From assembly GCA_024682115.1 (NCBI GenBank), contig JAIKZO010000058.1:1-64000 (forward strand): a stretch of 64,000 nt of DNA. Direction: 5' to 3'. The notes beneath the pieces were generated by a model. That model was not told the origin of the DNA, ran no database searches, and was given only the letters and a program-made list of their open reading frames with translations. The translations under genes and the position numbers were made by a program. Source of the DNA: Lachnospiraceae bacterium. Lineage in GTDB: Bacteria; Bacillota; Clostridia; Lachnospirales; Lachnospiraceae. How positions within the stretch are numbered: the first letter of the stretch is position 1; every line of letters begins with the position of its first letter. Positions 2,873 through 20,649 of this stretch are shown in pieces.

Positions 2873-2910
2873 AAAGTGTTATTGAAAGTGGATTGAGAAA
2901 GGGATGTCTC

Positions 2911-5052
2911 GTGAATATCTTTCGTAAGGGAGCAAACAGCAGAGTTTTTCTCATTGTAATGGCGATCTGTATCGCTATCACAGTCAACGTTTTGCTGTCG
3001 TTTGCGGTATTCAAGCTTGGTTTTCCGTTATATCTGGATACGATCGGAACTATCATCATGGCAACCATGGGTGGTTTTTTCCCCGGCGTTGTCACAGCGG
3101 TCGTAACAAATCTGATCTGCAGTTTCTTCAACAGAGAGGCTTTGTATTTTGCGGTCATTAATGCTTTGGCCGCTCTTTTTGTTTCTTCTTTTTCAAGAAA
3201 AAGATCTCTTAATAGAGCCAAAGACATCGGTATATTCATTGTTATTATAAGCATACTGTGCGGAAGCCTGAGTTCGATAATTCAATGGGAGCATTTCGGC
3301 GGCCCGCAGGATGCCATTATAAGATCCATGGTCGATTCTACGGTTGAGGCTACGGGCTATAACGGTTTTGTGGTATTGCTCATTATTAATCTTATACTCA
3401 ACTTTCTTGATAAGGGACTCGTTACGATGGTTTCCTGCTATGTGATGAGTCTTATCCCGGAAGAAATGGCAGATAAGATCGAAGGTGGAGCCTGGATGCA
3501 ACGCCCACTTTCGAAGGATGAAAAAAGATCTATCAAGGAATGGGGCAAGGATGTCAGACAATCGTTAAGATTTCGCATGACGGTAACTCTTTCTCTTGTT
3601 TCACTTGTCCTTGTGCTTTTAGTCGGCGGCGCCGGTCTGAGACTATATATCGAAAACGTTAAAGCTGAAAGGACTAAAGAAGCCGGTGATGTTGCACATA
3701 TGGTAGCTGCCGTTCTCGATGCCGAAATGATCAATGATTATATCCTCGGAGGAGATGCTGTCGAAGGATATGAAGATACGGTTCAGGTCATAGAGGGTAT
3801 ACGGAATAACATGACAAATGTTAAATACCTCTATGTTGCAAGAGCAGAAAAAGACGGATTCCGCTATGTTTTTGATGCCAGAGGCGATGAGGGCAGCCCC
3901 GAGCCATATAAGGCCGGCGAAATGGTTCCTTATGAGCATGAATTTCTCCCTTATGTCGAAGATCTTATAGCAGGAAAAGAAATAGATCCCGTTGAGTCAA
4001 ATGATTCGTGGGGATGGCTTATATCGGCTGCTCACCCGGTAAAGAATTCGGAAGGCAATACGGTCTGCTATGTGATTGCGGATGTTTCCATCGAATTGAT
4101 CGCCGACTTCATGAGGGAGTACATATTCAAGATCGGCCTCATCATTGCGGCTATCTTTATTGTCATAGTCGGATACGGTCTGTGGACTACAGGAATTTAT
4201 ACTTCATATCCTATAACAAGCATGGCTTATTGTGTCGACCATTTTTCTCAGGCCGGAGAAGATCAGGATAAACTTGATGATAATGTAAGATCGATACGTT
4301 CTTTGGATATTCACACAGGCGATGAGACGGAAAAACTATATAATGCGCTTTGCAGACTGACCTTGAATCAGGCGGAACAGATGAGAAACGTAAGAAGGCT
4401 GTCCGATTCGACGGCTCAAATGCAGGACGGACTTATCATCACCATGGCGGATATGGTCGAGAGTCGCGATTCCGATACCGGTGCACATGTCCAGAAGACC
4501 GCCGCATACGTTAAGATCATAGTAGAAGGCCTTAAGAAAAAAGGATATTATTCCGAAAAGATCACGCCCAAATTCATTTCCGACGTAATTCGAAGCGCAC
4601 CGCTGCATGATGTCGGAAAGATCAATATATCAGATAAGATACTGAATAAAGTCGGAAAGCTTACGGATGAAGAATATGAGATCATGAAGACTCACACTAC
4701 GGCGGGAAAGAAGATCATGGAAAATGCCATAAGTACCGTTAAGGGTGAAAACTATCTTAAGGAAGCCAGAAACATGGCCGCCTATCATCACGAAAGATGG
4801 GACGGCAAAGGTTATCCGGAAGGACTTCACGGAGAGGTCATTCCGTTGTCTGCACGTATCATGGCAGTGGCGGATGTTTTTGATGCACTTTCTTCACCAC
4901 GTGTTTACAAACCTGCTTTTTCCATAGAAAAATCCATAGAGATAATCAAAGAAGGTTCCGGAACACAGTTTGATCCAAAATGTGTTGAGGTATTTATGGA
5001 AGCCTTAACGGAAGTAAAACTGATAGTTAAGAAATACAATCAGGAATCTTAA
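2911..5052 (+). CDS. Membrane HD-GYP cyclic-di-GMP phosphodiesterase
   Basis: The N-terminal 200 residues form about six membrane helices with the FPLYLDTIGTI and GFFPGVVTAVVTN pattern of ECF-transporter S-component-like sensors. A further transmembrane pair flanks an extracytoplasmic PAS/Cache-like region (about 235-410). The C-terminus is a complete HD-GYP domain. All ligands are present: the TGAH helix, HDVGK, KTHTTAGKKIM, HHERWDGKGYPEGL and ADVFDAL. Such domains hydrolyse c-di-GMP to GMP or pGpG. The ORF track begins at TTG 2893, but GTG 2911 has AAAGGG at good spacing. It is the first gene of the signalling operon, with 18 bp to the next gene. The signal is unknown; a small vitamin-like ligand is only suggested by the S-component fold. 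Confidence 0.9.
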   Translation: MNIFRKGANSRVFLIVMAICIAITVNVLLSFAVFKLGFPLYLDTIGTIIMATMGGFFPGVVTAVVTNLICSFFNREALYFAVINALAALFVSSFSRKRSLNRAKDIGIFIVIISILCGSLSSIIQWEHFGGPQDAIIRSMVDSTVEATGYNGFVVLLIINLILNFLDKGLVTMVSCYVMSLIPEEMADKIEGGAWMQRPLSKDEKRSIKEWGKDVRQSLRFRMTVTLSLVSLVLVLLVGGAGLRLYIENVKAERTKEAGDVAHMVAAVLDAEMINDYILGGDAVEGYEDTVQVIEGIRNNMTNVKYLYVARAEKDGFRYVFDARGDEGSPEPYKAGEMVPYEHEFLPYVEDLIAGKEIDPVESNDSWGWLISAAHPVKNSEGNTVCYVIADVSIELIADFMREYIFKIGLIIAAIFIVIVGYGLWTTGIYTSYPITSMAYCVDHFSQAGEDQDKLDDNVRSIRSLDIHTGDETEKLYNALCRLTLNQAEQMRNVRRLSDSTAQMQDGLIITMADMVESRDSDTGAHVQKTAAYVKIIVEGLKKKGYYSEKITPKFISDVIRSAPLHDVGKINISDKILNKVGKLTDEEYEIMKTHTTAGKKIMENAISTVKGENYLKEARNMAAYHHERWDGKGYPEGLHGEVIPLSARIMAVADVFDALSSPRVYKPAFSIEKSIEIIKEGSGTQFDPKCVEVFMEALTEVKLIVKKYNQES

Positions 5053-5070: not shown

Positions 5071-8000
5071 ATGTATAAAGGAAAACATAAAAGTTCGATC
5101 GTGATCATAATATGCATATTGCTGATCTTGGCCGGGAGTATTCCGATGGAAGTCTTTGCCGAAGAGGATTCTTCGACGACATCGTCAACCTCCGGTGTCA
5201 TCGGAAATGTCATCGGCGGAGGTTATGCCGCTACCGGACAGATAGAGGGCGTGGGATACACGACCAAGCTTTTTGATGCCACAAACGGGTTGAATTCTTC
5301 GGATGCCAATTGTGTATACGGGTCCAGGGACGGATATGTATGGATTGGAAACAACGGCGGAATAATCCGTCATGACGGAACCTCTTTCGAGAGACTTGAT
5401 ACTTCCTACGGATTGACAAGCGGAAGAGTGATCTATGAAGACAGTTCATCAAGACTCTGGATAGGAACCAATGATAACGGTGTAGTTGTCATGGACGGTA
5501 ATGAACATAAGCATATAACATATGAGGACGGTCTTCCTTCATCTTCAATAAGGACATTTGCCGAAGGGATAAACGGCTATGTTTATATTGGAACAGCCAA
5601 TGGTCTTGTATATGCCGATAATGACATGAATATTGCCCGGGTAAATGATGTCAGACTTGAAAACGAGACAGTTTCAAGGCTTGTTGCCGATATGAACGGA
5701 CTGGTATACGGATGCACCAAAAACGGATGTATATTTACCGTTAATTCAGGTTCCGTTTCGTATTTTTTAAGATCGGGAGAGGGTAAATTCCCCAAGATAT
5801 CCATGATGCTTGCCGACCCCAGATCTCCCGGAAAGGTTTATATGGGAGCCGAACAGGACACCGTATATTACGGCAGGCTGTCGGGGGATTCCGAAGGTTA
5901 TAAAAAAATATATATTCCCGGTCTCGGAAATGTGAACTGGATGTCATATGAATGCGGCAGAGTCTGGATCGCATCCGACAATCTGGTCGGTTACCTGGAT
6001 GATGATAACTGCTTCCATGAGATAGACATTTCTCCAGTTGACAACCCGGTAGATATGATCACATCGGATTATCAGGGGAATATATGGATCGCTTCTGCAA
6101 GACAGGGCGTGATGAAGATCGTCACCAATAATTTTGTGAACATCCCTTCCGGTGCCGGAATCGCTGACGGTGCTGTCAATTCCACATGTCTTTATAAAGA
6201 GCAGCTTTATATCGGCACTGACAAGGGACTCAGTATCCTTGAAGAAAGCAGCCACAGATCGATAACAAATGATCTGACGAATTTTCTGGCAGAAATAAAG
6301 ATACGCTGTATCGCCAGGGACAGCGAGAATAATCTTTGGATAGGAACATATTCCAAGGATTGCGGACTGGTCTGCTATACGGATAAAGGCGTAATAAGAA
6401 AATATACCGATAAAGATGGTATGTTAAGTAATCAGATAAACTGTATCAGGATCGCTTCGGACGGATCAGTACTCATAGGCACAAACGGTGGCCTAAATGT
6501 GATCAAAAACGGTTTGATCGTAAGAGCTGTCGGCGCATCGGATAGTATCAGCAATACCGTATTCCTTACTGTCGAAGAAGGAGGAAACGGCGTTTTGTAT
6601 GCCGGTACCGACGGAGACGGCATATATATGATAAAAGGCGATAATGTCATGAAGATAGGTCGGGATAACGGCCTTACGAGTGACGTTATCGTAAAGATAA
6701 AAAAGGACATAATCTTTGGATGCTACTGGATAATTACATCCAATTCGATCGAATATATGAGGGAGGGTGCAATCACCAATATAGAAACCTTCCCGTATAA
6801 CAATAACTTCGATATTTTCGCCGATAAACTCGGCAACAGATGGATCCTTTCATCACAGGGTGTTTACTGTGTCAGCGGTAAAGATATGCTCGACGATGAT
6901 ATCACGGCTTACAGGCTTTATTCCCTGTCTAACGGACTTGACGGCATTCCTACTGATAATTCTTCGAGTGATCTGGATGATGAAGGAAATCTTTATATTG
7001 CTCAGAGAACCGGTGTAAGTGTCGTGAATATCGACCATTATTACGATCGCGATACATACGTCAAAATGTTCATCAGATCTCTTTATTGTAATAACGAACT
7101 GATCATGCCCGATGCAAACGGTAATTATTCGTTACCGGCGGCGCAGGGAAGAATTCAGATAACGCCTTCCATTCTTGATTATACGCTCACCGATCCGTTG
7201 GTACGTGTTTATCTTGAAGGCGCAAAGGATGAAGGTGTTACCAGCGTGCAGAGCAAGCTGTCTCCGCTGGAGTATACCGATCTTGGATACGGTGATTATG
7301 TGCTCCATCTTCAGATACTTGATAAGAATTCCGGTTTCGTTATTGAGGAAAAGGCATTCGGCATTTCGAAAACGCCCAGATTTGCCGAACTTCTCATAGT
7401 AAGGATTGCCACTCTGGCTGTCCTTTCGATCGGCGTTGCGCTCCTGGTATGGCGTATCCTTAAAGGGACCGTCATCAGCAAACAGTATGCCGAGATCAGG
7501 AATGCCAAAGAAGAAGCGGAAAGAGCCAATACCGCAAAATCCAGATTCCTCGCCAATATGTCTCACGAGATAAGAACGCCCATCAATACGATAATGGGAA
7601 TGAATGAGATGACTATGAGGGAAGACCCTACCGGAGTGCCCAAGAGCTATTTCATGTCCATGATGAACTATGCGTTTGATATCAGGAATGCGTCGGAAAC
7701 ACTTCTCGGACTTATAAACGACCTGCTTGATATCTCGAAGATAGAATCCGGGAAAATGCATCTTGTAGAGCAGGGGTACGATGTCCAGGATATGTTAAGG
7801 TCGATTGCGTCGATGATCCGGGTAAGGAGCACACAAAAGGGTCTTACTTTTGATGTGGTTGTTGATGAAGTATTACCGAAACGGCTATACGGAGACGAGG
7901 GAAAGATAAAGCAGATAATACTTAATCTGCTGACAAATGCCGTGAAATACACTCAAGTCGGCGGATTCATCCTCAGTGTTTCCATGACCGCAAGGACAAA

Positions 8001-9324
8001 TGACGAATGCGATCTTCGAATATCGGTCAAAGATACAGGCATGGGTATCAGGGAAGAGGATATGGGCAAGCTCTTCAGTGCCTATGAAAGACTGGAAGAA
8101 GAAAAGAACAGCGGTATCCAGGGAACAGGTCTCGGACTGGATATTTCCAAGAAATTTGCGGAACTGATGAACGGAGATCTCACATGTGAAAGCGTTTACG
8201 GAGAAGGCTCCGAGTTTATCCTTACGTTAAAACAGAAGATCGTTGATGATACGCCCATTGGTCTGTTTATCGAGCAGGAAGCCGAAAATGTGAAAGGGCC
8301 TTATGTTCCTCAGTTCATCGCACCCGATGCGGATGTCCTTGTTGTGGATGATAATCCCATGAACCTGGGTGTCATTAAAGGCCTGCTCAAAGCGACAAGA
8401 GTTTTTGTCACCACCGCTTCCAGCGGAGAAGAGTGTCTTGAAAAGATCAAAAACAGCAAGTTCGATGTGGTTCTCCTTGATCACATGATGCCCGGCATGG
8501 ACGGGATCGAGACTGTTGCTAAGATACGTGAGACCGATAAGGATCTTCCCGTATATGCCCTTACCGCGAATTCGACATTCGGGGAAGATTTCTATGTATC
8601 GAAAGGATTTAACGGTTATCTGTCAAAGCCGATAGACAGTGAAACTCTTGAAAAGGCAATAATGCGCCATCTTCCCGAAGAGATGATGGAAAAACCCGAG
8701 GCTGCAGATGCCATAGAGATAATCACGGAACTTCCGGAAGATATGCTTTGGGTAAAAGAAGTCGAGGGTATCAATACCGAAGACGGAATAGAGAATTCAG
8801 GTGGAGCAGGAAGCTATGTCTTCTCTCTCAACCTGTTCCTTGATACCATCGATGATAATACCAGGGTTCTCAAAGAAGCATATGAGAGCGATAATTTCAG
8901 GTTCTATACGATCAAAGTCCATGCTCTTAAGACTTCCGCCAGGATCATCGGCGCAAATGATCTTTCAAAACTGGCCGCCGAACTTGAAGAAGCCGGAAAC
9001 AAGGATGATATTGCATTTATCAGAGAAAACAACAATCTGTTCCTGAATGAATATAATGAGTTCAAGGAAAAACTCAAGAGGTTAAAGAATACGGAAGAAA
9101 AGAAGGATACTGAAAAAGAAGTCATATCCGAAGAGGAACTTAAGGATGCGTATGATACGCTTCGCGATGTCGTTCCTCAGATGGATTATGATTCCGTTGA
9201 AATGATATTGGGACAGCTTGAGAATTATTCTCTGCCCGAAGAAGATGAAGAGAAGGTCGCAAAGCTTTCCGGGATGCTTAAAAACTTTGATTGGGATAAA
9301 ATGGAAGAACTGTTGAACAGTTGA
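5071..9324 (+). CDS. Propeller-type hybrid histidine kinase (Reg_prop/Y_Y_Y-HK-REC-HPt)
   Basis: A signal peptide (cut near VFA-EE) precedes about 650 residues of two-component-regulator propeller repeats, recognisable as YVWIGNNGG, RLWIGTNDN, VYIGTANG, IWIASARQG, LWIGTYSK and similar. A Y_Y_Y-like strand domain (about 680-770) and one transmembrane helix (about 775-797) follow. The cytoplasmic part is HisKA with H832 (NMSHEIRTP), HATPase (GTGLGLDIS), a receiver with D1137 (LLDHMMPGMDG), an HPt with H1284 (VHALKTSARIIG), and a C-terminal domain of about 70 aa shared with three other kinases here. The sensor layout is that of the HTCS proteins that sense glycan fragments in Bacteroides, but an HPt replaces the AraC DNA-binding domain. 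It is the second gene of the operon. A saccharide ligand is an inference. Confidence 0.93.
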   Translation: MYKGKHKSSIVIIICILLILAGSIPMEVFAEEDSSTTSSTSGVIGNVIGGGYAATGQIEGVGYTTKLFDATNGLNSSDANCVYGSRDGYVWIGNNGGIIRHDGTSFERLDTSYGLTSGRVIYEDSSSRLWIGTNDNGVVVMDGNEHKHITYEDGLPSSSIRTFAEGINGYVYIGTANGLVYADNDMNIARVNDVRLENETVSRLVADMNGLVYGCTKNGCIFTVNSGSVSYFLRSGEGKFPKISMMLADPRSPGKVYMGAEQDTVYYGRLSGDSEGYKKIYIPGLGNVNWMSYECGRVWIASDNLVGYLDDDNCFHEIDISPVDNPVDMITSDYQGNIWIASARQGVMKIVTNNFVNIPSGAGIADGAVNSTCLYKEQLYIGTDKGLSILEESSHRSITNDLTNFLAEIKIRCIARDSENNLWIGTYSKDCGLVCYTDKGVIRKYTDKDGMLSNQINCIRIASDGSVLIGTNGGLNVIKNGLIVRAVGASDSISNTVFLTVEEGGNGVLYAGTDGDGIYMIKGDNVMKIGRDNGLTSDVIVKIKKDIIFGCYWIITSNSIEYMREGAITNIETFPYNNNFDIFADKLGNRWILSSQGVYCVSGKDMLDDDITAYRLYSLSNGLDGIPTDNSSSDLDDEGNLYIAQRTGVSVVNIDHYYDRDTYVKMFIRSLYCNNELIMPDANGNYSLPAAQGRIQITPSILDYTLTDPLVRVYLEGAKDEGVTSVQSKLSPLEYTDLGYGDYVLHLQILDKNSGFVIEEKAFGISKTPRFAELLIVRIATLAVLSIGVALLVWRILKGTVISKQYAEIRNAKEEAERANTAKSRFLANMSHEIRTPINTIMGMNEMTMREDPTGVPKSYFMSMMNYAFDIRNASETLLGLINDLLDISKIESGKMHLVEQGYDVQDMLRSIASMIRVRSTQKGLTFDVVVDEVLPKRLYGDEGKIKQIILNLLTNAVKYTQVGGFILSVSMTARTNDECDLRISVKDTGMGIREEDMGKLFSAYERLEEEKNSGIQGTGLGLDISKKFAELMNGDLTCESVYGEGSEFILTLKQKIVDDTPIGLFIEQEAENVKGPYVPQFIAPDADVLVVDDNPMNLGVIKGLLKATRVFVTTASSGEECLEKIKNSKFDVVLLDHMMPGMDGIETVAKIRETDKDLPVYALTANSTFGEDFYVSKGFNGYLSKPIDSETLEKAIMRHLPEEMMEKPEAADAIEIITELPEDMLWVKEVEGINTEDGIENSGGAGSYVFSLNLFLDTIDDNTRVLKEAYESDNFRFYTIKVHALKTSARIIGANDLSKLAAELEEAGNKDDIAFIRENNNLFLNEYNEFKEKLKRLKNTEEKKDTEKEVISEEELKDAYDTLRDVVPQMDYDSVEMILGQLENYSLPEEDEEKVAKLSGMLKNFDWDKMEELLNS

Positions 9325-9343
9325 TTTTATGGAGGATTTACGG

Positions 9344-10102
9344 ATGGTAAAAGAACAGATGATCGTTATCGGTGAGAAAGAAACATTCATGGTGCGCGTG
9401 CTTACTCAAAAAGCACAGTCCGCTGATGTGGAATGCAAGTTTGTTCCCTGTACCGTCAATGATATCAATGCGAATATGGAAAACGTAACGCTGATCGCCC
9501 TGTATATGGAAGACGAGATGATACCCAATGAATCTGTACTTCATTTTATAACCGAAAAGCTTGAAGATAAGGGGATACAGATCATGATCATCGGCGATCA
9601 GAGAGATATCCCTAAAGTATGCGAACATATTCCGCCTGAACTTGTTTACAGGACATTTGCCAGACCCATAGATAACGCCGAATATGTTGAGGAGATTTCC
9701 GAATATTATAAGAAGATCGCTCTGGGAGAATTCAAGAAGAGTATCCTTGTTGTTGACGATGATCCGCAGTATCTGTCTATAGTCAGAGAGTGGCTCAAGG
9801 ATACATATAAGGTATCAATGGCTAATTCGGGACTCCAGGCGATAAAATGGCTCGGAAAGAATAGAGTCGATCTTATCTTACTTGACCACGAAATGCCAAT
9901 CACGGGCGGACCGCAGGTGCTTGAAATGTTAAGGAACGATGCGGATACCAGTTCTATCCCCGTGATCTTTCTTACCGGAAAAGGGGATAAGGAAAGCGTT
10001 ATGGCGGTTAAAGCGCTTCATCCCGAAGGGTATTTCTTAAAAACTATCAAACGCGAAGAATTACTTGAAAAGCTGAAAGAGTTTTTCCTTATTCACAGAT
10101 AA
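9344..10102 (+). CDS. Output-less response regulator with N-terminal pseudo-receiver
   Basis: The first half (about 1-125) has a receiver-like alternating strand/helix pattern (QMIVIGEKE, IQIMIIGDQRDI) but lacks the acidic pocket and phosphoacceptor. The second half is a true receiver: VVDDDPQYLSIV, D181 in LLDHEMP, then FLTGKG and K in YFLKT. There is no DNA-binding or enzymatic output. The ORF track start at 9329 is rejected because that ATG overlaps the GGAGG ribosome site; ATG 9344 lies 8 nt after it (252 aa). It is paralogous to the protein at 25746-26525, including the REWxK and GPQVLxMLR segments. It is a likely phosphate acceptor or sink for the kinases around it (inference). Confidence 0.88.
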   Translation: MVKEQMIVIGEKETFMVRVLTQKAQSADVECKFVPCTVNDINANMENVTLIALYMEDEMIPNESVLHFITEKLEDKGIQIMIIGDQRDIPKVCEHIPPELVYRTFARPIDNAEYVEEISEYYKKIALGEFKKSILVVDDDPQYLSIVREWLKDTYKVSMANSGLQAIKWLGKNRVDLILLDHEMPITGGPQVLEMLRNDADTSSIPVIFLTGKGDKESVMAVKALHPEGYFLKTIKREELLEKLKEFFLIHR

Positions 10103-10141: not shown

Positions 10142-12526
10142 ATGTTTGATTTTATCAGAGATCATCAAATGAATATCATGCTGGCTCTATGTGCGGCCTG
10201 CGCGACAATGGCGATCATGCTTTTCTTCACCAGGTTCCTTCCGACTAAAAGGAAATGGATACTTATCCTGATGGAGTTGATTGCCACGTTTTTACTGTTC
10301 TTTGACCGCATGGCATATATCTATTCCGGAGATGTGAGCCGGAAAGCCTATATACTTGTCAGGGTTTCTAACTTTATGGTTTTTTTCCTGACCAGCGGTA
10401 TCGTCCTTGGCTTTAACATGTATCTTTGCGATCTCCTTTTGAGCGAAAAAGCAGTTGAAAAGCTTCCCGTGAGGCTTAAAACTGTTAGCATCATGTCTTT
10501 AATGGGCATGATGCTTGTCGTTATCTCGCAATTTACCGGCCTGATCTATTCGTTTGATGAACAGAATAAGTATTTCAGAGGACCGGGATTCCTATTATGC
10601 TACATTGTTCCCGTTATATGTCCTTTGATCCAGTTTACGGTCATCTGCCAATACAGGAAAAGTTTCAGCCGATTTATCAATATCGCTCATGCATTATATA
10701 TATTTGTTCCGATCATCGTCGGGATCATCCAGATCTTTACCTATGGTCTGTCCATAGTCAATATGTCGATGGTGCTGGTTTCGATCTCTCTTTATGTCTT
10801 TACCTATCTTGATATAAATGACGAGGTTGTCAGGATGCATAAGATCGAGATGGAAGGCCTTAAAGCGGAACGAAAGAGTATGAGGAGACTTTTTGATCAG
10901 ACAGCCACGGCTTTTGTTACGGCAGCCGAATATAAAGATCCTTTTTCAAAAGGATATTCAATGAGGGTGGCTGTTGTATCCAAAAGATTGGCAAAAGAGC
11001 TTGGCAAGAATGAAGAAGAATGTAACGAGATATATTATGCGGCCCTGCTTCACGATGTCGGTAAGGTTGCGCTTCCGGATGATGTTATCGGGAAGACCGA
11101 TTATCTTACTGCCGAAGAAGAAGAGATGATAAAACAAAGCCCTGCCATAAGTGAGGAGATATTATCCAATATAAACGAATATCCCTATCTTGGCGAGGCT
11201 GCCAGATACAGCAATGAAAGATATGACGGCACCGGATATCCTGAAGGACTTTCGGGCAAAGAAATCCCCGAGGCGGCAAGGATAATAGCCGTAGCCGAAG
11301 CATATGTTGAAATGACAAGAAAAACGAGGACAAGAGATCCGCTTCCTTCGGCATTTGTCAGAGAGGAACTTATCAAGGAATCCGAAGGAAAATATGATCC
11401 GGAGATCGCCGATATCATGGTCAAGATCATGGATTCATTAGAGAACGAGGGACTCGGACTCGATGATGTCACTGTGGAGACCCAGATCACCTGCGGAAAA
11501 TACAGGGATAATATCACGAAAGGAATAGAGATCACCAACAATGTTTCAAAGATAAGCTTTAATTATTCTCCTACAGATATTAAAGGAGACGGATTCAGTG
11601 CGCCTTCCATCATTCTGTTTGATTCATTTGACAGAAGAGTTCACAGCAACGAAAAGGCTATAAAGGCTTATAAATATCTGGAATACGGCGAACTTTGGTT
11701 TGACGGTCACAGCATTCGGACCGGTGCCAAGAATATGGAAGTCAGTGTTGACGAACATGTTGAAACTGATGAAAGACTCATCGATCGCATGAAGAACAAA
11801 AAACAGGCTTATTCCATCGTGGCTTCCAGGTATGAAGATCATATAAAACTTATATTGGAAAGCAGGGACCATACGGTTGAAGTTGTAGCCGCGCTTCCGT
11901 CGGTTTCGGTTTCGGCTTATATAGGTCTTACCGGTGAAAACTGCAATATTTCAGGTATAAGGATTGAACAGACCGGCGAAATGACACGTGAAGAGGATAT
12001 TCCGAGGATCGCGAGCTCGGATGTTTATACAGACAGACTTGAATCGGATATCCCGAATATTCAGATCGATCGTCCCCGTAATGTTTCGACGATCGGAACG
12101 CCGGTCAAAGACGGGATGATGCTCAGATTTCATTCCATGAGCCTTCCTTCTGCTACTCTTGTATGGCATTGCCCTTATGTTGTTCTGTTCAGTTCAGACG
12201 ACAATACGGTTGGCGGCAGTAACTACAGGGAATATGCGATGATAAAGATCAACGGCGAAAGCAATATAGAAAATGATTTTGCCGAAAACCGATTTATCAT
12301 GAAGAGAAAAGAATCGTTCCCGGGTTGGGAGGAATGGAAGAGGATCAACAGGGAAGGCATCGAATGCAAGGTTGTTTTCAGAAAAAAAGGAAACCGGTAT
12401 TCGATCATTACCGAGAATCTCGGCATATCTCTTGAGAACATAACAACTGTCAATGATGCTTCCGGTGAGATCTGTGCGGCATTGACCGGAGATCAGGTCG
12501 CGCTTACCGATATCAGGATATCGTAG
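10142..12526 (+). CDS. Membrane protein with degenerate HD-GYP domain and unknown C-terminal domain
   Basis: About seven membrane helices fill residues 10-225, as in 7TM-type sensor input domains. The next 220 residues align end to end with HD-GYP domains and keep HDVGK (H304-D305) and DGTGYPEGL. The other metal ligands are gone. The usual TGH histidine is Y272 (KGYSMRV), the HPxI histidine is S333 (QSPAIS), the HH of HHERWDG is S357-N358 (YSNERYDG), and the ADVxDALT aspartate is replaced (AEAYVEMT). It is therefore probably inactive as a phosphodiesterase and may bind c-di-GMP or a partner. The last 350 residues are strand-rich and not recognised. It sits between an output-less regulator and a hybrid kinase. 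Confidence 0.85.
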   Translation: MFDFIRDHQMNIMLALCAACATMAIMLFFTRFLPTKRKWILILMELIATFLLFFDRMAYIYSGDVSRKAYILVRVSNFMVFFLTSGIVLGFNMYLCDLLLSEKAVEKLPVRLKTVSIMSLMGMMLVVISQFTGLIYSFDEQNKYFRGPGFLLCYIVPVICPLIQFTVICQYRKSFSRFINIAHALYIFVPIIVGIIQIFTYGLSIVNMSMVLVSISLYVFTYLDINDEVVRMHKIEMEGLKAERKSMRRLFDQTATAFVTAAEYKDPFSKGYSMRVAVVSKRLAKELGKNEEECNEIYYAALLHDVGKVALPDDVIGKTDYLTAEEEEMIKQSPAISEEILSNINEYPYLGEAARYSNERYDGTGYPEGLSGKEIPEAARIIAVAEAYVEMTRKTRTRDPLPSAFVREELIKESEGKYDPEIADIMVKIMDSLENEGLGLDDVTVETQITCGKYRDNITKGIEITNNVSKISFNYSPTDIKGDGFSAPSIILFDSFDRRVHSNEKAIKAYKYLEYGELWFDGHSIRTGAKNMEVSVDEHVETDERLIDRMKNKKQAYSIVASRYEDHIKLILESRDHTVEVVAALPSVSVSAYIGLTGENCNISGIRIEQTGEMTREEDIPRIASSDVYTDRLESDIPNIQIDRPRNVSTIGTPVKDGMMLRFHSMSLPSATLVWHCPYVVLFSSDDNTVGGSNYREYAMIKINGESNIENDFAENRFIMKRKESFPGWEEWKRINREGIECKVVFRKKGNRYSIITENLGISLENITTVNDASGEICAALTGDQVALTDIRIS

Positions 12527-12544: not shown

Positions 12545-15385
12545 ATGGATGAGAACAGAAAAAACAAAATCGAAGATCTGAACGGATCTGAAAATTCCAA
12601 TATCAGACCGGCCATTTGGAAGATATTGCTGTATGTTCTTATTACAGCTTTTTTCGTATGCGTGGTTTTTATCTATTACAGGATGATCTATTTCGAGACC
12701 AGGGATAATATCATCAACGAAGGTAAGATAAACGCTATAGAATCATCAGATCTTATTGATAAACGTCTTCTGTCCAGTATGGATACCCTTATTCTTGCCG
12801 GACACACACTTGATATTTTGCTCGCAGAAGACAGATCCCAGGAAGAGATACTTGATTATCTGACCGAAGAAACCAGAGCTGTAGGGGAATCGCTCATAGT
12901 CAATACAACGGGGATCTACGGATATTTCAGGGGAGAATATATGGACGGATCCGGTTGGGATCCCGGCGAAGGCTATAATCCTACCGTAAGACCCTGGTAT
13001 ACGGAAGCCATGGCCGGACATGGCGAGATCGTTATAGTAGATCCATATGTGGATCTTGATACCGGAACCGTAATGATAGCCATAGTAAAGACGCTTTGCG
13101 ATAACGAAAGCGTTGTCGGAATAGATGTTTCGATGGATACACTTCAGGAAGTAGTGGAAGAACGTGTGGCCAGAAACGATGCTTTTGCGGAGTTCATTGT
13201 TAACAGCCATGGGACGATCATTTCTCATTCCGACATGCATCTTATCGGAACCACGATCAATGACGGAACAGATCCGCTTTCCGTATCTATCTGGAATAAG
13301 ATCAACACGGTCGAAGACGGATATTTCTATCTTGAATATGCAAATCGCGATTACATGATCTATGTTATGCCGTTAAGTACCGGCTGGACATGTGTATCCG
13401 TTATCGATGCAACGGATGATTTTGCCGCTCTTCGTATCCCGCTTGTGATAACCATTTTTATCTCAGTTATAATCATCGCTGTTTTCTTTATTCTGCTCGG
13501 GGCTTCGGAAAAGAAGAGCAGAAAGATCAGAGAATCTGCCGTAAGGACTGAACGCGCCATGGCCGCAAACGAGGCCAAGACTTCATTCCTTTCAAATATG
13601 TCTCATGAAATACGAACACCTATAAATGCGATCCTCGGGATGAACGAGATTATACTCAGAGAGTCTGATGATGATTCCATACTCGGCTATTCCGAGAATA
13701 TCAAGAGTGCGGGATCTTCATTACTTGGTATTATCAATGATGTCCTTGATTTTTCCAAGATAGAAGCCGGAAAGATAGAGATATTACCTGTGGATTATGA
13801 TCTGTCATCCGTAATAAACGATCTCGTGAACATGATCCAGGTTCGTGCGGAAAGCAAACATCTCGATCTTGAACTTTATTTTGACAAAGATATCCCCAGA
13901 TCTTTAAACGGAGATGAGGTCCGCATAAAACAGGTCATCACCAACATATTAACAAATGCCGTGAAATATACGGAAAAAGGAACCGTAAGGTTTTCAATGG
14001 GATATGAACACATTGAAAATGATGATGAGAACATTTTGCTTAAAGTATCCGTGAAAGACACGGGTATCGGTATAAAGCAGGAAGATATCCATAAACTGTT
14101 TTCTAAATTCGAGCGCATAGAAGAAAAACGTAACCGTAACATAGAGGGTACGGGACTCGGGATGAACATTACTCAGAGCCTGTTGTCATTGATGGGATCA
14201 TCTTTGGAAGTGACCAGTGCGTACGGGAAAGGTTCTGTTTTCGGTTTTTCACTTAAGCAGAAAGTCAATTCATGGGAACCGCTCGGAGATTATGAAGCAT
14301 CTTACCGGCAGCACATCGAAAAACAGGGCACATATAAACAGAAATTCACTGCCGAAAAGGCTCAGATACTTGTGGTTGATGATAATCCGATGAACCTTGT
14401 CGTATTCACCAGCCTCTTAAAGAGAACAAAGATAAAGATCGATACAGCTGATAACGGAGATAACGGTATCGTTCTTACACGGAACAAAAAATATGATCTG
14501 ATCTTCCTTGATCATATGATGCCTGAAAAAGACGGTATCGAAACGCTTCGTGAAATACGAAAAGAAAACGATAATCCTAACATTTCGACTCCTTATGTCT
14601 GCCTAACCGCAAATGCGATCTCCGGTGCAAGAGAACAGTATATCGAAGCAGGCTTTGATGATTATCTGACAAAGCCCGTAGATTCTGACAAACTTGAGCA
14701 AATGCTCCTTCAGTATATTCCGGAAGATAAGATCGAAAAGATCAAAGAGGCGACCGGAGAAGAAAAGAAAAAATTTACCGAAGAAGATATCCCCGAAGAA
14801 CTCATAGCGATCGACGGAGATCTTATAGATGTAAAAGCGGGTCTTAACAATAACGGAAGCCCGGAACTGTATAACAATGTCTTAAAAATGTTCTTTAATT
14901 CGATAAACCATACTCATAAGATGTTATCGGATCTTTTCGGATCGGATTCCTATGAGGAATATACGATAAAAGTACATGCACTTAAGAGTTCCGCAAGGAT
15001 CGTAGGTGCCGCCGCTTTCGGAGAAGAAGCCCAAAAACTTGAGGATGCCGGAAAAGCAGGTGATTTCGGATATATCCGTGAGCATAACCGTGAATTCCTT
15101 GATCATTATCTTGAGTTCGGGGAACTTCTTGCAGGATTGTTCGACTGCGGTAAAGAGCAGGCTGAAAGACCTGTTGCGGATCCCGAACTATTGAGTAATG
15201 TTTATGAAGAAATAAGATCCGCGGCGGATGATATGGATTGTGACCGCCTTGAAAACATATTTAAGGAAATGGATGAATACAGCATCCCGAAAGAAGAAGA
15301 GGAACTTTATACCGGGTTGAAGGAAGCGACCTGGAATTATGATTATGATGGGATACTTTCCCTTCTGAATAACAATGATAAATGA
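12545..15385 (+). CDS. dCache hybrid histidine kinase (dCache-HK-REC-HPt), putative amino-acid sensor
   Basis: One transmembrane helix (about 25-47), a periplasmic dCache domain (about 50-290) and a second helix (about 298-320) are followed by HisKA (H354), HATPase (GTGLGMNIT), a receiver (D656, FLDHMMPEKDG), an HPt (H811, VHALKSSARIVG) and the C-terminal domain shared with three sister kinases. The dCache contains R149-P-W151-Y152, Y168 (DPYVD) and D194 (GIDVS). Residues and spacing closely match the dCache amino-acid-binding signature known from PctA-like receptors. The operon also encodes an alanine-type symporter, which fits amino-acid sensing (inference). The kinase core is very close to that of the next gene. 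The ribosome binding site before the ATG is weak. Confidence 0.92.
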   Translation: MDENRKNKIEDLNGSENSNIRPAIWKILLYVLITAFFVCVVFIYYRMIYFETRDNIINEGKINAIESSDLIDKRLLSSMDTLILAGHTLDILLAEDRSQEEILDYLTEETRAVGESLIVNTTGIYGYFRGEYMDGSGWDPGEGYNPTVRPWYTEAMAGHGEIVIVDPYVDLDTGTVMIAIVKTLCDNESVVGIDVSMDTLQEVVEERVARNDAFAEFIVNSHGTIISHSDMHLIGTTINDGTDPLSVSIWNKINTVEDGYFYLEYANRDYMIYVMPLSTGWTCVSVIDATDDFAALRIPLVITIFISVIIIAVFFILLGASEKKSRKIRESAVRTERAMAANEAKTSFLSNMSHEIRTPINAILGMNEIILRESDDDSILGYSENIKSAGSSLLGIINDVLDFSKIEAGKIEILPVDYDLSSVINDLVNMIQVRAESKHLDLELYFDKDIPRSLNGDEVRIKQVITNILTNAVKYTEKGTVRFSMGYEHIENDDENILLKVSVKDTGIGIKQEDIHKLFSKFERIEEKRNRNIEGTGLGMNITQSLLSLMGSSLEVTSAYGKGSVFGFSLKQKVNSWEPLGDYEASYRQHIEKQGTYKQKFTAEKAQILVVDDNPMNLVVFTSLLKRTKIKIDTADNGDNGIVLTRNKKYDLIFLDHMMPEKDGIETLREIRKENDNPNISTPYVCLTANAISGAREQYIEAGFDDYLTKPVDSDKLEQMLLQYIPEDKIEKIKEATGEEKKKFTEEDIPEELIAIDGDLIDVKAGLNNNGSPELYNNVLKMFFNSINHTHKMLSDLFGSDSYEEYTIKVHALKSSARIVGAAAFGEEAQKLEDAGKAGDFGYIREHNREFLDHYLEFGELLAGLFDCGKEQAERPVADPELLSNVYEEIRSAADDMDCDRLENIFKEMDEYSIPKEEEELYTGLKEATWNYDYDGILSLLNNNDK

Positions 15386-15426
15386 TCGGGAATATAGCCT
15401 GATATCTGATCACCGGAGAAGCAGAA

Positions 15427-18400
15427 ATGGAAAAAAGCATTGTTTATACCAATGACAATTGTATCGGATGTAATAAGTGCATCAAAGTCTGCAGTGCGAT
15501 AGGCGCCTGTATCTCAAAGGAAGAAAACGGAAAGGCCAGGATCGATGTTGACGGAAACAAATGCGTAGGCTGCGGAAGCTGTATCGATGTCTGTGTTCAC
15601 GGCGCAAGGGAATACCTTGATGACACCGAAAGATTTTTTGATGATCTTAAAAAAGGTGAAAACATTTCCCTGCTGCTGGCGCCTGCATTTAAGGCTAATT
15701 ATCCCGATGACTATGAAAGTGTTCTCGGAGGATTGAAACAGCTTGGTATTAACAGGATCATCAGTGTTTCGTTCGGTGCGGACATTACTACATGGGGATA
15801 TCTTAACTATATAGAAAAGTACGATTTTCTTGGAGGAATATCGCAACCCTGTCCGGCACTTGTTTCTTACATAGAAAGATATCTTCCCGAGCTTATCCCG
15901 AAGCTTTTTCCCGTACAGAGCCCTTTGATGTGCGCTGCGGTATATGCGAGAAAAGAAATGGGGATAACGGATAAATTCGCATTTATCAGCCCCTGTATCG
16001 CAAAAAAACTTGAGATCGAAGATCCGCATAACTCCGGTCTGGTTCAATACAATGTAACTTTTGAACATCTTATGAAGTATGTGAAGGAACATGATATAAA
16101 AGGACCGTCCGTAAACAGCGAGATAGAATACGGTCTCGGGTCTTTTTATCCGACTCCGGGCGGCTTGGCCGAGAACGTTAAATGGTTCCTTGGAGACCAT
16201 GTTTATATTCGCCAGATAGAAGGCGAACGACATCTTTATGAATGGCTGCACCAGAACAAAGACAGGATCAAAGAAGACAAGACGCCGTTCCTTTTTATCG
16301 ATGCTCTTAACTGCGAAAAGGGATGTATATGCGGAACCGCTGTAAATCCCGAAAAATCTAAGACCGATGATGCTCTTTATGCCCTGCTCAATATCAGGGA
16401 AAAGTCAAAAAAAGAGACAAGCGGAGATGCCTGGTCAAGGCCCGATCCTCCCGAAGAGCGATTGAAGAACTATAATCTCCAGTTCAGGGATCTTGATCTT
16501 AACGATTATTTAAGGGGTTATACTGACAGATCCTCCGAATGCAGATATGACTTTCCGCAGGGTAAAGATCTGGAAGAAATATATGTCAGCATGAACAAGC
16601 TTGATGAAGCATCAAGAAAGATAGACTGTACATGCTGCGGTTATGAGAGCTGTTACCAGATGGCAACGGCTATTTACAACGGCTTCAACCATAAGGAAAA
16701 CTGTATCCATTACGAAAAAGCGATGGTACAGGAACTCGAAGTTGAAAAGGCCATAGCCGAGGAGGCAACAAAGGCTAAAAGCTCATTCCTTGCCAACATG
16801 TCTCATGAGATCAGAACACCCATAAATGCTGTTCTCGGAATGAATGAAATGGTACTTCGCGAATGCGAGGATCCCAATATAGTCGCATATTCGGAGAGCA
16901 TAAGAAGTGCCGGGAATACGCTTCTTGGTCTTGTTAACAATATTCTCGATTTCTCTAAGATCGAAGCAGGCAAGATGGAGATCACTCCGGTGGATTATGA
17001 TCTTTCATCCGTTGTCAATGACCTTGTAAACATGATACAGAACAGAGCCGATGAAAAGGGACTCCTGATCGCCTTGGATATCGATCCGAAGATACCGAAA
17101 GTACTTCACGGCGATGAGATAAGGATAAAGCAGATCATTACAAATATTCTTACAAATGCCGTTAAATATACCGAAAAGGGCACGATAACCTTCAGACTCG
17201 GATACGAAGCCATCCCTTCGGATAATGACCATATCGTACTTAAGGTAATGGTTGAGGATACCGGTATCGGGATCAAAGAGGAAGATATCTCAAGACTCTT
17301 TGAACAGTTTGACAGGATAGAGGAAAAACGTAACCGAAACATCGAAGGAACCGGCCTTGGGATGAATATTACCCTGAAGCTTTTGGAGCTTATGGGTTCG
17401 ACCCTGAATGTCAAGAGTGTTTACGGAGAAGGTTCGAAGTTCTACTTTGACCTTGAACAGGAAGTCATCAAATGGGAAGAACTCGGGGATTATGAGTCTT
17501 CATACAGACATCTGGTCGGTGAAAGGAAGGAATATAAAGAAAAGTTTACAGCCCCCGAAGCGCAGGTTCTTGTTATCGATGATAATCCGATGAACCTGAT
17601 GGTATTCAAGAGCCTGTTAAAACAAACACGGGTATGTGTTGATACCGCAAACGACGGTTTTGAAGGTCTTACGCTTGCGTATGACAAGAAGTATGACATC
17701 ATCTTCTTTGACCATATGATGCCGGAAAAAGACGGTATTGAGACGCTTCATGAAATGAGAGCACAGGAAAAAAATCCCAATCTTGAAACACCTGCGGTAT
17801 GCCTTACTGCAAATGCGATCTCCGGAGCCAGAGAGTTTTATATAGAAGCCGGATTTGATGATTATCTTACGAAACCCATAGATTCGGAAAAACTCGAAGA
17901 TATGCTCCTTCATTATCTGCCTGAAGACAAGATCGTTATGGTAAGTGCTGATCAGATTTCATCCGATGATAATGAAGAAGCATTAAGTGACGAACTTAAA
18001 GAACTCGACAAATACGAAGGAATAGATGTTAAGACAGGTATCCTTAACAGCGGAAGTGTCGATGCTTATATGCCGCTCCTTAAGATCTTTTATGAATCGA
18101 TGGATGAAAAAGGTAATGAGATAGAAAACTATTATAAAGAAAAAGATATAAAGAATTATACGATAAAGGTTCATGCACTTAAGAGCTCAGCGAGACTCAT
18201 AGGTGCCGTTGAATTCGGAGAGATAGCACAGGAACTCGAAAACGCCGGAAAGAGTGAAGATATCGGCTTTATTGACGAAAACCATGCTACCTTTATGGAG
18301 GAATTCCATAAGTTCAAAGAGCCGCTTTCGAAACTGTTTGATAAGGGTGGCAATAACGAAGACAAACCTCTTGCCGATCCGATCCTTATGGCTGAGGTGT

Positions 18401-18576
18401 TTGAAGAAATAAGGTCTGCGGCAGAAGACATGGATTGCGACAGGCTTGAGAGCGTATTTGAAGAAATGGCCGATTTTCGTATTCCGGACAGTGATGTCGA
18501 TCTTTACGAGAAGCTTAAGAGCGCGGCAGGAATGTTTGATTATGATTCGATTACGGAACTGCTGAAAGACAAATAG
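15427..18576 (+). CDS. Sensory [FeFe]-hydrogenase fused to a hybrid histidine kinase
   Basis: Residues 1-70 hold two [4Fe-4S] ferredoxin motifs (CIGCNKCIKVC and CVGCGSCIDVC). Residues about 75-330 are the large-subunit catalytic domain of [FeFe]-hydrogenases, with H-cluster cysteines in SQPCPAL, SPCIAKKLE and NCEKGC. The catalytic TSCCP motif has become SQPCP, so the proton-shuttling cysteine is absent, as in sensory (HydS-like) enzymes. An FeS domain with CX2CX4CX16C spacing (about 398-427) follows. Then come HisKA (H460), HATPase, a receiver (D762), an HPt (H916) and the shared C-terminal domain. There is no transmembrane helix, so it acts in the cytoplasm. Known sensory hydrogenases usually carry PAS domains; here the kinase is joined directly. 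H2 or redox sensing is inferred. Fifth hybrid or pseudo-sensor gene of the operon. Confidence 0.93.
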   Translation: MEKSIVYTNDNCIGCNKCIKVCSAIGACISKEENGKARIDVDGNKCVGCGSCIDVCVHGAREYLDDTERFFDDLKKGENISLLLAPAFKANYPDDYESVLGGLKQLGINRIISVSFGADITTWGYLNYIEKYDFLGGISQPCPALVSYIERYLPELIPKLFPVQSPLMCAAVYARKEMGITDKFAFISPCIAKKLEIEDPHNSGLVQYNVTFEHLMKYVKEHDIKGPSVNSEIEYGLGSFYPTPGGLAENVKWFLGDHVYIRQIEGERHLYEWLHQNKDRIKEDKTPFLFIDALNCEKGCICGTAVNPEKSKTDDALYALLNIREKSKKETSGDAWSRPDPPEERLKNYNLQFRDLDLNDYLRGYTDRSSECRYDFPQGKDLEEIYVSMNKLDEASRKIDCTCCGYESCYQMATAIYNGFNHKENCIHYEKAMVQELEVEKAIAEEATKAKSSFLANMSHEIRTPINAVLGMNEMVLRECEDPNIVAYSESIRSAGNTLLGLVNNILDFSKIEAGKMEITPVDYDLSSVVNDLVNMIQNRADEKGLLIALDIDPKIPKVLHGDEIRIKQIITNILTNAVKYTEKGTITFRLGYEAIPSDNDHIVLKVMVEDTGIGIKEEDISRLFEQFDRIEEKRNRNIEGTGLGMNITLKLLELMGSTLNVKSVYGEGSKFYFDLEQEVIKWEELGDYESSYRHLVGERKEYKEKFTAPEAQVLVIDDNPMNLMVFKSLLKQTRVCVDTANDGFEGLTLAYDKKYDIIFFDHMMPEKDGIETLHEMRAQEKNPNLETPAVCLTANAISGAREFYIEAGFDDYLTKPIDSEKLEDMLLHYLPEDKIVMVSADQISSDDNEEALSDELKELDKYEGIDVKTGILNSGSVDAYMPLLKIFYESMDEKGNEIENYYKEKDIKNYTIKVHALKSSARLIGAVEFGEIAQELENAGKSEDIGFIDENHATFMEEFHKFKEPLSKLFDKGGNNEDKPLADPILMAEVFEEIRSAAEDMDCDRLESVFEEMADFRIPDSDVDLYEKLKSAAGMFDYDSITELLKDK

Positions 18577-18597
18577 TTTAACGGGAAGGAACTATCA

Positions 18598-20649
18598 ATG
18601 AGGAGAAATAAGATCCATCGTTTTATCATTGCGATGATAACGATAGCAGCAATAGGACTCATAATTGACAGTGCGTCGGAAAACTGGGAGTTTTGGGTTA
18701 CTCCGCTTATGATCATCGGTACTATAGGTATGTGGGTCATCCATTTCGGTCAGTTTCTGAACGAACAAAGCAGAGAAATGATATACCTGTTCTTCGGGAT
18801 GTTTCTTGCGTTCTTTCATGGTGTACACGAAACGAGTTTTTTTGATGTGTGCTCAGTCATGGCTTTAATGCTGGTTCTGTATTCGCTATACGACAGATTA
18901 TATGCTTTGAATCTTATACTGATCGAGTTTTTCTTTGTAATGATCATGGCGTTCTTTTTCGTTATCAGACCCGAGAACTTTTTGCTTGACATGATAAATG
19001 TATCGAGACTCGTGCTTCAGGTTGTGATCGTTCTTTCCATCTATATGATCTGCAGAATGAGTGTTATCACACGTCTTGAACAGATCGATCTTCTTAAGCA
19101 GCAAAACGCTGATATGGAAGCCACCCAAAACGATATGGAGGACTTCCTTTCCAATATCTCTCATGAACTCAGGACACCCGTAAATGTTGTAAACGGCATG
19201 TCTGAACTCATGATAAAAAGAAACGCCGGATCCGAGGCATATTCCATAAAGAATGCCGGGATAAGGATCGCATATCAGATAGAAGACGTTCAGGATTATA
19301 CGGAATGTAAAAGAAATAAGGTGATGCTCGAAGAGGAAGATTATATGAGTACATCCCTTATTAATGATGTTGTCACCGGATATAAGCTTATTGAATATAA
19401 CAAAGCTCTGGAACTTATTGTTGATATCGATCCCGAAGTCCCTACCATGATGCGCGGTGATGTTAAAAAGATCCATAAGATCTTCAGGCATCTTCTCGAA
19501 AACGCGGTCAAATTTACCAAACGCGGAGGAATCCTGGTAAGAATGTATTCGGAAGAGACCGATTACGGGATCAATCTTTGTATTGAAATGACCGATACCG
19601 GAATAGGAATGGATCAAAGAGCCATAGAGGCTATCTCCGAAGGAATGTATCAGGTCAACAAAAAACGAAATCGCAGCACCGGAGGTATCGGACTCGGACT
19701 TTTCATCGTATACGGATTTGCCCATCGGATGGGAGGTTTCGTTAAGATAGAAAGCAAGAAAGGGAACGGTACAAGAGTGCGTGTTACGATCCCTCAGAAA
19801 GTCATAAAACCCGAACCCTGTCTGGTGTTATCCAATGACTATGAAGGGGATATTCTTTTCCATGTCAGATCGGATAAATACAAGGTTCCGAAAGTGCGCG
19901 AATTTTATCGCACCATGGCAGGTAATCTGGCAACAAAGCTTCATGTCCGGCTTTACTCGGCCGAGACGATTAAAGAGATCGAAAGACTCGAAGAAAAACT
20001 GAACGTTAAGTATATCTTTATGGGTCAGGAAGAATATGAAGATAATCCCGAGTATTTCGATGAATTGAGTAAAGGGGATATCGTTGTATCCGTATCCGCA
20101 TCATCCGGGTTTAAGACCAATCCTGGAAGCAGGGTCATGATCATGCCGAAACCTCTTTATGCATATCCGGTCTTCAAGATCCTGAATGAAGGGCTTAACG
20201 CTGATAATTTTGACATTTCCGGTGAAGCTGTAAGACCGGTATTTAAAGATGTCAAAGCGCTTGTTGTCGATGATGAACCTATGAATCTCGTAGTGGCGAC
20301 AGGTTTGTTCAAAGATTATGAAATGATCATTGATACGGCCGGAAGCGGAAAAGAATCAATCAAAAAATTTAAAAATGATAATTATGATGTTGTTTTCATG
20401 GATCATATGATGCCGGAAATGGACGGAGTGGAAGCCATGAAGCATATAAAAGAGGAAGCCGGGGAGCATAACAGGAGTGTTATTGTCATTGCACTTACTG
20501 CCAATGCCGTATCAGGGGCTAAAGAGATGTTCATTAAAGAAGGTTTTGACGGATTCATCGCAAAACCTATAAATACGGCCGACTTCGAAAGAGTAATGAT
20601 GAAACTTCTTCCGGAACTTTCTTCCGTAAAGGGAGGTGAAACGGCATGA
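18598..20649 (+). CDS. Membrane hybrid histidine kinase with pseudo-receiver and receiver
   Basis: Six hydrophobic helices in residues 1-160 form a compact membrane sensor without a large outer loop. A HisKA (H189, NISHELRTPVN) and HATPase (LLENAVKFT, DTGIGM, GIGLGLFIV) follow. Residues about 400-535 look like a degenerate receiver (strands around CLVLSND and KYIFMGQ) without a phosphoacceptor. The final domain is a true receiver (VVDDEPMN, D602 in FMDHMMPEMDG). Unlike its sisters it has no HPt and no shared C-terminal domain. Its stop overlaps the start of the DegV kinase (ATGA), so the two are translated together. The HPt of that neighbour could serve this receiver in trans (inference). Confidence 0.9.
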   Translation: MRRNKIHRFIIAMITIAAIGLIIDSASENWEFWVTPLMIIGTIGMWVIHFGQFLNEQSREMIYLFFGMFLAFFHGVHETSFFDVCSVMALMLVLYSLYDRLYALNLILIEFFFVMIMAFFFVIRPENFLLDMINVSRLVLQVVIVLSIYMICRMSVITRLEQIDLLKQQNADMEATQNDMEDFLSNISHELRTPVNVVNGMSELMIKRNAGSEAYSIKNAGIRIAYQIEDVQDYTECKRNKVMLEEEDYMSTSLINDVVTGYKLIEYNKALELIVDIDPEVPTMMRGDVKKIHKIFRHLLENAVKFTKRGGILVRMYSEETDYGINLCIEMTDTGIGMDQRAIEAISEGMYQVNKKRNRSTGGIGLGLFIVYGFAHRMGGFVKIESKKGNGTRVRVTIPQKVIKPEPCLVLSNDYEGDILFHVRSDKYKVPKVREFYRTMAGNLATKLHVRLYSAETIKEIERLEEKLNVKYIFMGQEEYEDNPEYFDELSKGDIVVSVSASSGFKTNPGSRVMIMPKPLYAYPVFKILNEGLNADNFDISGEAVRPVFKDVKALVVDDEPMNLVVATGLFKDYEMIIDTAGSGKESIKKFKNDNYDVVFMDHMMPEMDGVEAMKHIKEEAGEHNRSVIVIALTANAVSGAKEMFIKEGFDGFIAKPINTADFERVMMKLLPELSSVKGGETA

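Follow-up and report, generated by a model that had tools for sequence, protein, structure and literature searches.

The window (the whole stretch of 64,000 nucleotides that was analysed) belongs to the genome of a rumen-type gut bacterium and carries the following conserved unit:

2893 to 5052, forward strand: intact membrane HD-GYP protein (HDGYP1), first operon gene (Pfam HD_5, E = 7.8e-31; translation may instead begin at a later GTG, at 2911)
5071 to 9324, forward strand: hybrid histidine kinase with a Reg_prop propeller (HisKA-HATPase-REC-Hpt; Pfam), second operon gene
9329 to 10102, forward strand: response regulator, third operon gene (Pfam Response_reg, E = 2.4e-23, with REC at residues 139-249; synteny)
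10142 to 12526, forward strand: 7TM - stalk - degenerate HD-GYP - tandem beta-sandwich protein, last gene of the unit (ATG start, 794 amino acids)

This gene order, namely an intact HD-GYP, a propeller hybrid histidine kinase, usually a two-receiver regulator, and the degenerate HD-GYP protein last, recurs across many genera and in more than 20 genomes. An orthologue of the kinase (about 50-70% identity) is found upstream of nearly all operon-linked homologues, and roughly one operon in three lacks the response regulator gene. The N-terminal half of the regulator encoded in the window looks REC-like as well by eye, and the protein lacks an output domain. The initial annotation had placed an intact HD-GYP enzyme at 2911; indeed, HDGYP1 possesses all eight metal ligands (EHHDHHHD) together with the D, K, R, and Y residues of the site. 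Similarly, the site of the partner HD-GYP protein is complete in 28 of 30 operons. One exception is L065 (also L173:2240-4399), in which both HD-GYP proteins have changed sites (D661N, R670K, and Y672D in the partner, by window numbering). The other is the reciprocal case of Lachnospiraceae MA2020 (L098:749-2470), in which the HD motif of the partner has Tyr for His and the HD-GYP protein with the C-terminal domain is complete. No conserved downstream target gene was found next to the homologues, and the unit therefore ends with the gene at 10142-12526. As the same genome contains 39 GGDEF, 13 HD_5, and 3 PilZ matches, c-di-GMP is probably in use in this host.

The last gene encodes a predicted membrane-bound protein with the following parts:

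10142 to 10753, forward strand: N-terminal part with six of the seven predicted membrane helices (AlphaFold model)
10754 to 10930, forward strand: seventh membrane helix running on as a stalk into the HD-GYP domain, residues 205-263 (AlphaFold model)
10919 to 11437, forward strand: degenerate HD-GYP domain, residues 260-432 (Pfam HD_5; best solved-structure match DvhD, 9rbz)
11480 to 11986, forward strand: C-terminal beta-sandwich 1, residues 447-615 (AlphaFold pLDDT 89.9; match to tandem galectin-8, 4han, E = 5.3e-6)
11987 to 12523, forward strand: C-terminal beta-sandwich 2, residues 616-794, homologous to sandwich 1 (hhalign)

The AlphaFold model of the whole protein (mean pLDDT 86.6) consists of seven membrane helices, followed by the HD-GYP fold and two beta-sandwiches, the helices being located at residues 2-29, 35-60, 67-101, 110-132, 150-170, 177-199, and 205-263 (pLDDT mostly above 84). 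Charged loops after helices 1, 3, and 5, as read from the sequence, would place the C-terminus inside the cell. By fold and descent, the protein is a member of the HD-GYP family. Indeed, Pfam HD_5 matches residues 260-422 (E = 1.1e-32, well above the cut-off), and Foldseek retrieved 9rbz, 4r8z, and 4mcw, with DvhD bound to c-di-GMP (9rbz) closest to the HD-GYP part (E = 2.3e-10, TM-score 0.85 on the target). DvhD (PDB 9rbz and 9rc0) is also the best sequence match among solved structures (E = 1.6e-23).

Within the HD-GYP domain, the following positions of the metal and nucleotide site were located:

10955 to 10957, forward strand: Tyr272 replacing a ligand His (PmGH H189; alignment)
11051 to 11056, forward strand: His304-Asp305, retained HD motif (alignment)
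11138 to 11140, forward strand: Ser333 replacing a ligand His (PmGH H250; alignment)
11210 to 11215, forward strand: Ser357-Asn358 replacing the ligand pair HH (PmGH H276-H277; alignment)
11216 to 11269, forward strand: retained ERYDGTGYPEGLSGKEIP loop, residues 359-376 (E359, G363, G365, P367, I375, and P376 invariant even in the degenerate clade described below)
11297 to 11308, forward strand: Glu386 (ligand Asp in relatives) to Val389 (structural Asp, PmGH D308; alignment)
11324 to 11335, forward strand: Thr395-Arg396-Thr397-Arg398 replacing R-x-Y-R, contacts to the base and phosphate of c-di-GMP (alignment to DvhD R650/Y652/R653 and PmGH R314/K317)

The ligand positions were taken from an alignment with three intact paralogues of the same genome and mapped onto PmGH of Persephonella marina. 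The latter shares the HD-GYP fold but, as a tri-iron phosphodiesterase, is active and complete in its eight ligands, namely E185, H189, H221, D222, H250, H276, H277, and D305 (PMC4159591). The corresponding positions of the 794-amino acid protein are E263, Y272, H304, D305, S333, S357, N358, and E386. Hence, five of the eight ligands are replaced (H272 to Y, H333 to S, H357 to S, H358 to N, and, conservatively, D386 to E), and four of the five ligand histidines are gone. The initial annotation had numbered these residues correctly (His304-Asp305, Tyr272, Ser333, and Ser357-Asn358), although its statement that nearly all metal ligands were lost was slightly too strong, as E263 and H304-D305 remain. 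The eight-ligand pattern E/D-H-HD-H-HH-D of active HD-GYP phosphodiesterases is absent, and the HHExxDGxGYP motif reads SNERYDGTGYP, with HH lost and ExxDGxGYP intact; the GYPEGL loop is kept, as annotated. The stretch AEAYVEMT had also been read correctly, but the family norm is ADAYDAMS/T instead of the proposed ADVxDALT, the real changes being D386E, D389V, and A390E. Among these, D389 corresponds to PmGH D308, a structural residue needed for activity (PMC4159591). In addition, two c-di-GMP contacts are changed, namely R395 to T (PmGH R314, DvhD R650) and Y397 to T (DvhD Y652), and R398 is retained. In PmGH, a single change to Ala at any ligand His essentially abolishes activity, and changes of the glutamate or the last aspartate leave a trace (PMC4159591). 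Judged from these residues, the HD-GYP domain of the window protein presumably does not hydrolyse c-di-GMP, residual activity with the three remaining ligands being unlikely.

The strand-rich C-terminal domain, which the initial annotation had left unrecognised, could be assigned to a fold by a structure search of its model. Modelled alone, the C-terminal part of about 360 residues reached a pLDDT of 89.9 and matched tandem galectin-8 best (4han, E = 5.3e-6, probability 1.00), and hhalign aligned its two halves with a probability of 99% (E = 6.6e-18). The domain thus models confidently as an internal duplication of two tandem concanavalin A/galectin-like beta-sandwiches. As superposition on the whole tandem is loose (TM 0.2-0.3) and single-domain matches have a TMt of about 0.45, the claim is limited to the concanavalin A/galectin-like fold. 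Kinship with the clostridial neurotoxin binding domains is not claimed, because those Foldseek matches reflect the shared lectin-like sandwich fold, with loose superposition and about 10% identity. Searches of Pfam and NCBIfam with this domain gave no family match, and the sandwich pair, predicted to be cytoplasmic, would represent an undescribed family.

The C-terminal domain had been proposed as the output of the pseudoenzyme. This role as its special output was rejected, since three paralogues of the same genome (C134, C103, and C170; 36-39% overall identity) bear the same domain on a fully intact HD-GYP, with all sites complete, as do intact HD-GYP proteins elsewhere. With a profile, the domain was detected in 30 of the 250 genomes sampled from the family and in one further main family of the class. 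Named records with the domain are mostly those of rumen Lachnospiraceae and Ruminococcus MAGs, Oribacterium sp. KHPX15, Lachnospiraceae MA2020 and XBB2008, and Treponema zioleckii. Furthermore, the domain occurs in a fusion:

L080:3992-8161 and L111:4981-9141, also in L110 and L116: propeller - intact HD-GYP - tandem-sandwich fusion of about 1390 residues

The propeller sensors of L080 and L111 are of the type present in the operon kinase and are joined directly to an intact HD-GYP and the same C-terminal domain, and this fusion is a functional link of the propeller input with the HD-GYP - C-terminal-domain module. Weak matches to the second sandwich only were seen in three proteins without HD-GYP (L043:664-2094, L044:1201-2094, and L045:853-3249), two of which hold two copies; Pfam gave no identification for these proteins.

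The history of the ligand loss was followed on a tree of the C-terminal domain alone, the HD-GYP columns being left out so that the trait columns could not shape the tree. The operon-linked copies fall mainly into one group, in which a clade of 25 rows (support 100) is wholly degenerate. Four further losses lie apart from this clade (L072, L063, L076, and the pair L048/L049). Ligands were thus lost at least five times independently, and every event is operon-linked. Of the intact branch length where loss is countable, only 19% lies on operon branches (P = 2.8e-4). Counted by rows of the tree, which stem mostly from other genomes and are not independent, 30 of 38 operon-linked rows are degenerate versus 0 of 41 elsewhere. 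Three rows with contigs ending too early were placed as operon-linked by their tree position, and some of the rows counted as elsewhere are also short-flanked. Eight operon-linked rows keep all ligands (for example L055, L057, and L096). In the genus of the window, five operon copies from three other species display five site patterns, namely EHHDQSCD, EKHDESYR, ERHDRVNR, ENHDKSRD, and DHHDPLYN. Since 30 of the 38 operon-linked rows and these five additional copies are degenerate, versus none of the 41 rows elsewhere, the ligand loss, on this comparison of sequences, is not a matter of chance or sequencing error. The functional link with the intact copy that had been suggested is also borne out, as far as synteny indicates, by the one operon conserved in more than 20 genomes and by the loss in that setting only. 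The most extreme copy is the following:

L095:7450-9741 (NZ_JPUF01000046.1): Treponema zioleckii kT3 orthologue, a spirochaete record with the operon and an intact partner

This orthologue has deletions of the GYP loop, of about 30 residues around the H333 position, and of the 395-398 (RxYR) loop. Its HD-GYP falls below the Pfam cut-off, and the 7TM part, the C-terminal domain, and the operon are kept.

Pairs of degenerate genes have a pN of 0.07-0.33 versus a near-saturated pS, the HD domain included. Because silent differences are near saturation and replacement differences amount to 0.07-0.33 per site, the degenerate genes are under purifying selection; by this comparison, the ligand loss is old and the genes are not decaying. 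A pseudogene or an assembly error as the cause was rejected, the frame being open, the gene being under purifying selection, and the same trait occurring in related genomes. In the main degenerate clade (23-24 diverged copies), E359, G363, G365, P367, R380, E408, and D419 are invariant; H272, K308, and positions 333, 395, and 397 vary more than the median column. Residues contacting the nucleotide persist in most members of this clade, with K/R265 in 24/24, Y366 in 22/24, an aromatic residue at 397 in 18/24, and K/R395 in 15/24, which may fit a nucleotide sensor at least as well there. Most often, the clade has Lys in place of His333 and Ser in place of His357, as if lysine stood for the metal charge; the window copy has Ser instead of Lys at position 333.

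The ligand loss, the conserved operon, the repeated loss confined to it, the purifying selection, the intact partner, and the shared C-terminal domain point to a catalytically dead membrane HD-GYP protein that is kept as a non-enzymatic subunit of an operon-encoded signalling complex, an explanation to which we assign a probability of about 0.58. Because the loss occurred at least five times and only in copies sharing an operon with an intact HD-GYP, the dead domain is probably kept as a signal-relaying subunit. A signal from the 7TM sensor would pass via the long stalk helix to the pseudo-HD-GYP and on to the pair of cytoplasmic concanavalin A-like beta-sandwiches, which would serve as the cytoplasmic contact part. 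Where hydrolysis of c-di-GMP is needed, the intact membrane HD-GYP, whose gene lies three positions upstream, would perform it, leaving the dead domain free of selection for metal binding. The latter could act as a dimerising, docking, or relay module touching its operon partners, namely the intact HD-GYP, the propeller kinase, and the two-receiver regulator; such a complex is suggested by the gene order and the fusion. Tentatively, this may be extended to a live and dead membrane HD-GYP pair in an operon of rumen Lachnospiraceae and their neighbours. The second partner would have been inactivated at least five times once beside the first, and the dead subunit, with its metal and nucleotide sites shed, might be an allosteric partner of the live phosphodiesterase or the propeller kinase via the undescribed lectin-like sandwich pair.

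Alternatively, the protein may be a c-di-GMP receptor of the DvhD type, in which metal-free binding of the nucleotide splays the stalk helices and sends a signal to the membrane domain or the C-terminal sandwiches, which is a possibility that we regard as rather unlikely. The precedent behind the c-di-GMP-binding effector of the initial annotation is real, as DvhD, the closest solved relative by sequence and fold, lacks the ligands and binds c-di-GMP, with a Kd of about 0.1 uM, without hydrolysing it (PMC13090378). The window protein resembles it as a membrane protein with a stalk helix and an HD-GYP fold without metal ligands. In addition, K265, F268, P312, L322, Y366, M391, and R398 agree exactly or nearly with DvhD contacts, and the c-di-GMP machinery of the host is ample. 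Compared with the canonical contacts Y523, L577, K582, Y621, M646, R650, Y652, and E668 of DvhD, F268, L322, Y366, and M391 are the same or similar, whereas E327, T395, T397, and S414 differ. Both lost contacts at 395 and 397 matter in DvhD, in which R650A and Y652A/R653A weaken stabilisation by c-di-GMP (PMC13090378). DvhD of Desulfovibrio vulgaris has dCache and PAS domains, retains R650/Y652, and has c-di-GMP sites that are conserved across its orthologues (PMC13090378). The window protein, in contrast, has a 7TM part, C-terminal sandwiches, a drifting site, and an operon with an intact HD-GYP; Pfam matched neither dCache nor PAS in the protein, nor an LapG-type protease among the gene neighbours scanned. 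Within the genus, residues 395-398 read TAYR, GRTG, HRTA, KRYR, and TGSR, the variability of columns 395 and 397 in the degenerate clade ranks at the 65th-67th percentile, and both pocket loops are gone in the Treponema orthologue. Binding of c-di-GMP as in DvhD thus appears possible for the family and doubtful for the window copy.

It is improbable that the HD-GYP part has become a passive remnant, which would space the sandwiches from the 7TM sensor, have a folding role only, and be in the course of being lost. The ligand losses differ among lineages, as with relaxed constraint, and HD identity is lower in the degenerate set than in the intact copies (50% versus 64%), the C-terminal domain evolving alike in both; the reduced Treponema domain fits this picture too. 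However, purifying selection goes on in the HD domain of degenerate copies, most of the DGxGYP loop, E359, R380, E408, D419, and the core are invariant among diverged copies, and visible shortening of both pocket loops is limited to a single copy. Finally, retained enzymatic activity of the HD-GYP domain, through a reduced metal site or on another substrate, is very improbable, for although E263, H304, and D305 are left, D386E is conservative, and the degenerate ancestor seems to have had Lys333 and Ser357, retained in most clade members, the window copy lacks four of five His ligands and the Lys of that pair, and the HD motif, K308, and D386 vary in the degenerate clade.

Inactive HD-GYP proteins with a function are known, namely PA2572 (PMC3411652) and DvhD (PMC13090378). 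The YN-GYP protein PA2572 of Pseudomonas aeruginosa has no detectable c-di-GMP hydrolysis and its regulatory effects remain (PMC3411652). It is likewise a non-canonical HD-GYP, but has a REC-YN-GYP architecture and a chemotaxis receptor partner, whereas the receiver of the window operon is separate and the HD-GYP membrane-bound. Bd1817 of Bdellovibrio (PDB 3tm8 and others), a structurally matched HD-GYP described as inactive, is a weaker match (E of about 7e-5) with another architecture. Two-component c-di-GMP systems of the RpfC-RpfG type follow the logic of a hybrid kinase, a receiver, and an HD-GYP output. In the window operon, however, REC is encoded by its own gene instead of being fused to HD-GYP under the hybrid kinase, and there are two HD-GYP proteins, one of them dead. 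Degenerate GGDEF and EAL domains are well studied, but the known inactive HD-GYP domains come from just a few individual proteins. In the library searched, no paper combined HD-GYP with pseudoenzyme, and the titles and abstracts of the matches for Lachnospiraceae or Reg_prop gave no indication of this operon. What is new is the pairing of a live with a dead HD-GYP in one operon, the recurrent loss confined to that operon, the fact that the nucleotide site drifts as well, and the family of tandem sandwiches. The homologues form a natural series in one conserved operon, from intact copies via one-ligand losses to a domain without the GYP loop, with the intact paralogue as a built-in control. With this series, the point at which a c-di-GMP phosphodiesterase turns into a partner protein can be tested by comparison and simple assays.

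Downstream of the unit, the window contains four more hybrid kinases in the same direction (12545-24095). These genes were considered as members of the unit and rejected, as homologues elsewhere do not share them. The hybrid histidine kinase at 15427-18576 has an N-terminal iron-only-hydrogenase-like domain and 4Fe-4S clusters and is likely a redox or gas sensor. The one at 20646-24095 carries a whole DegV domain (fatty-acid-binding family) between its receiver and Hpt domains.
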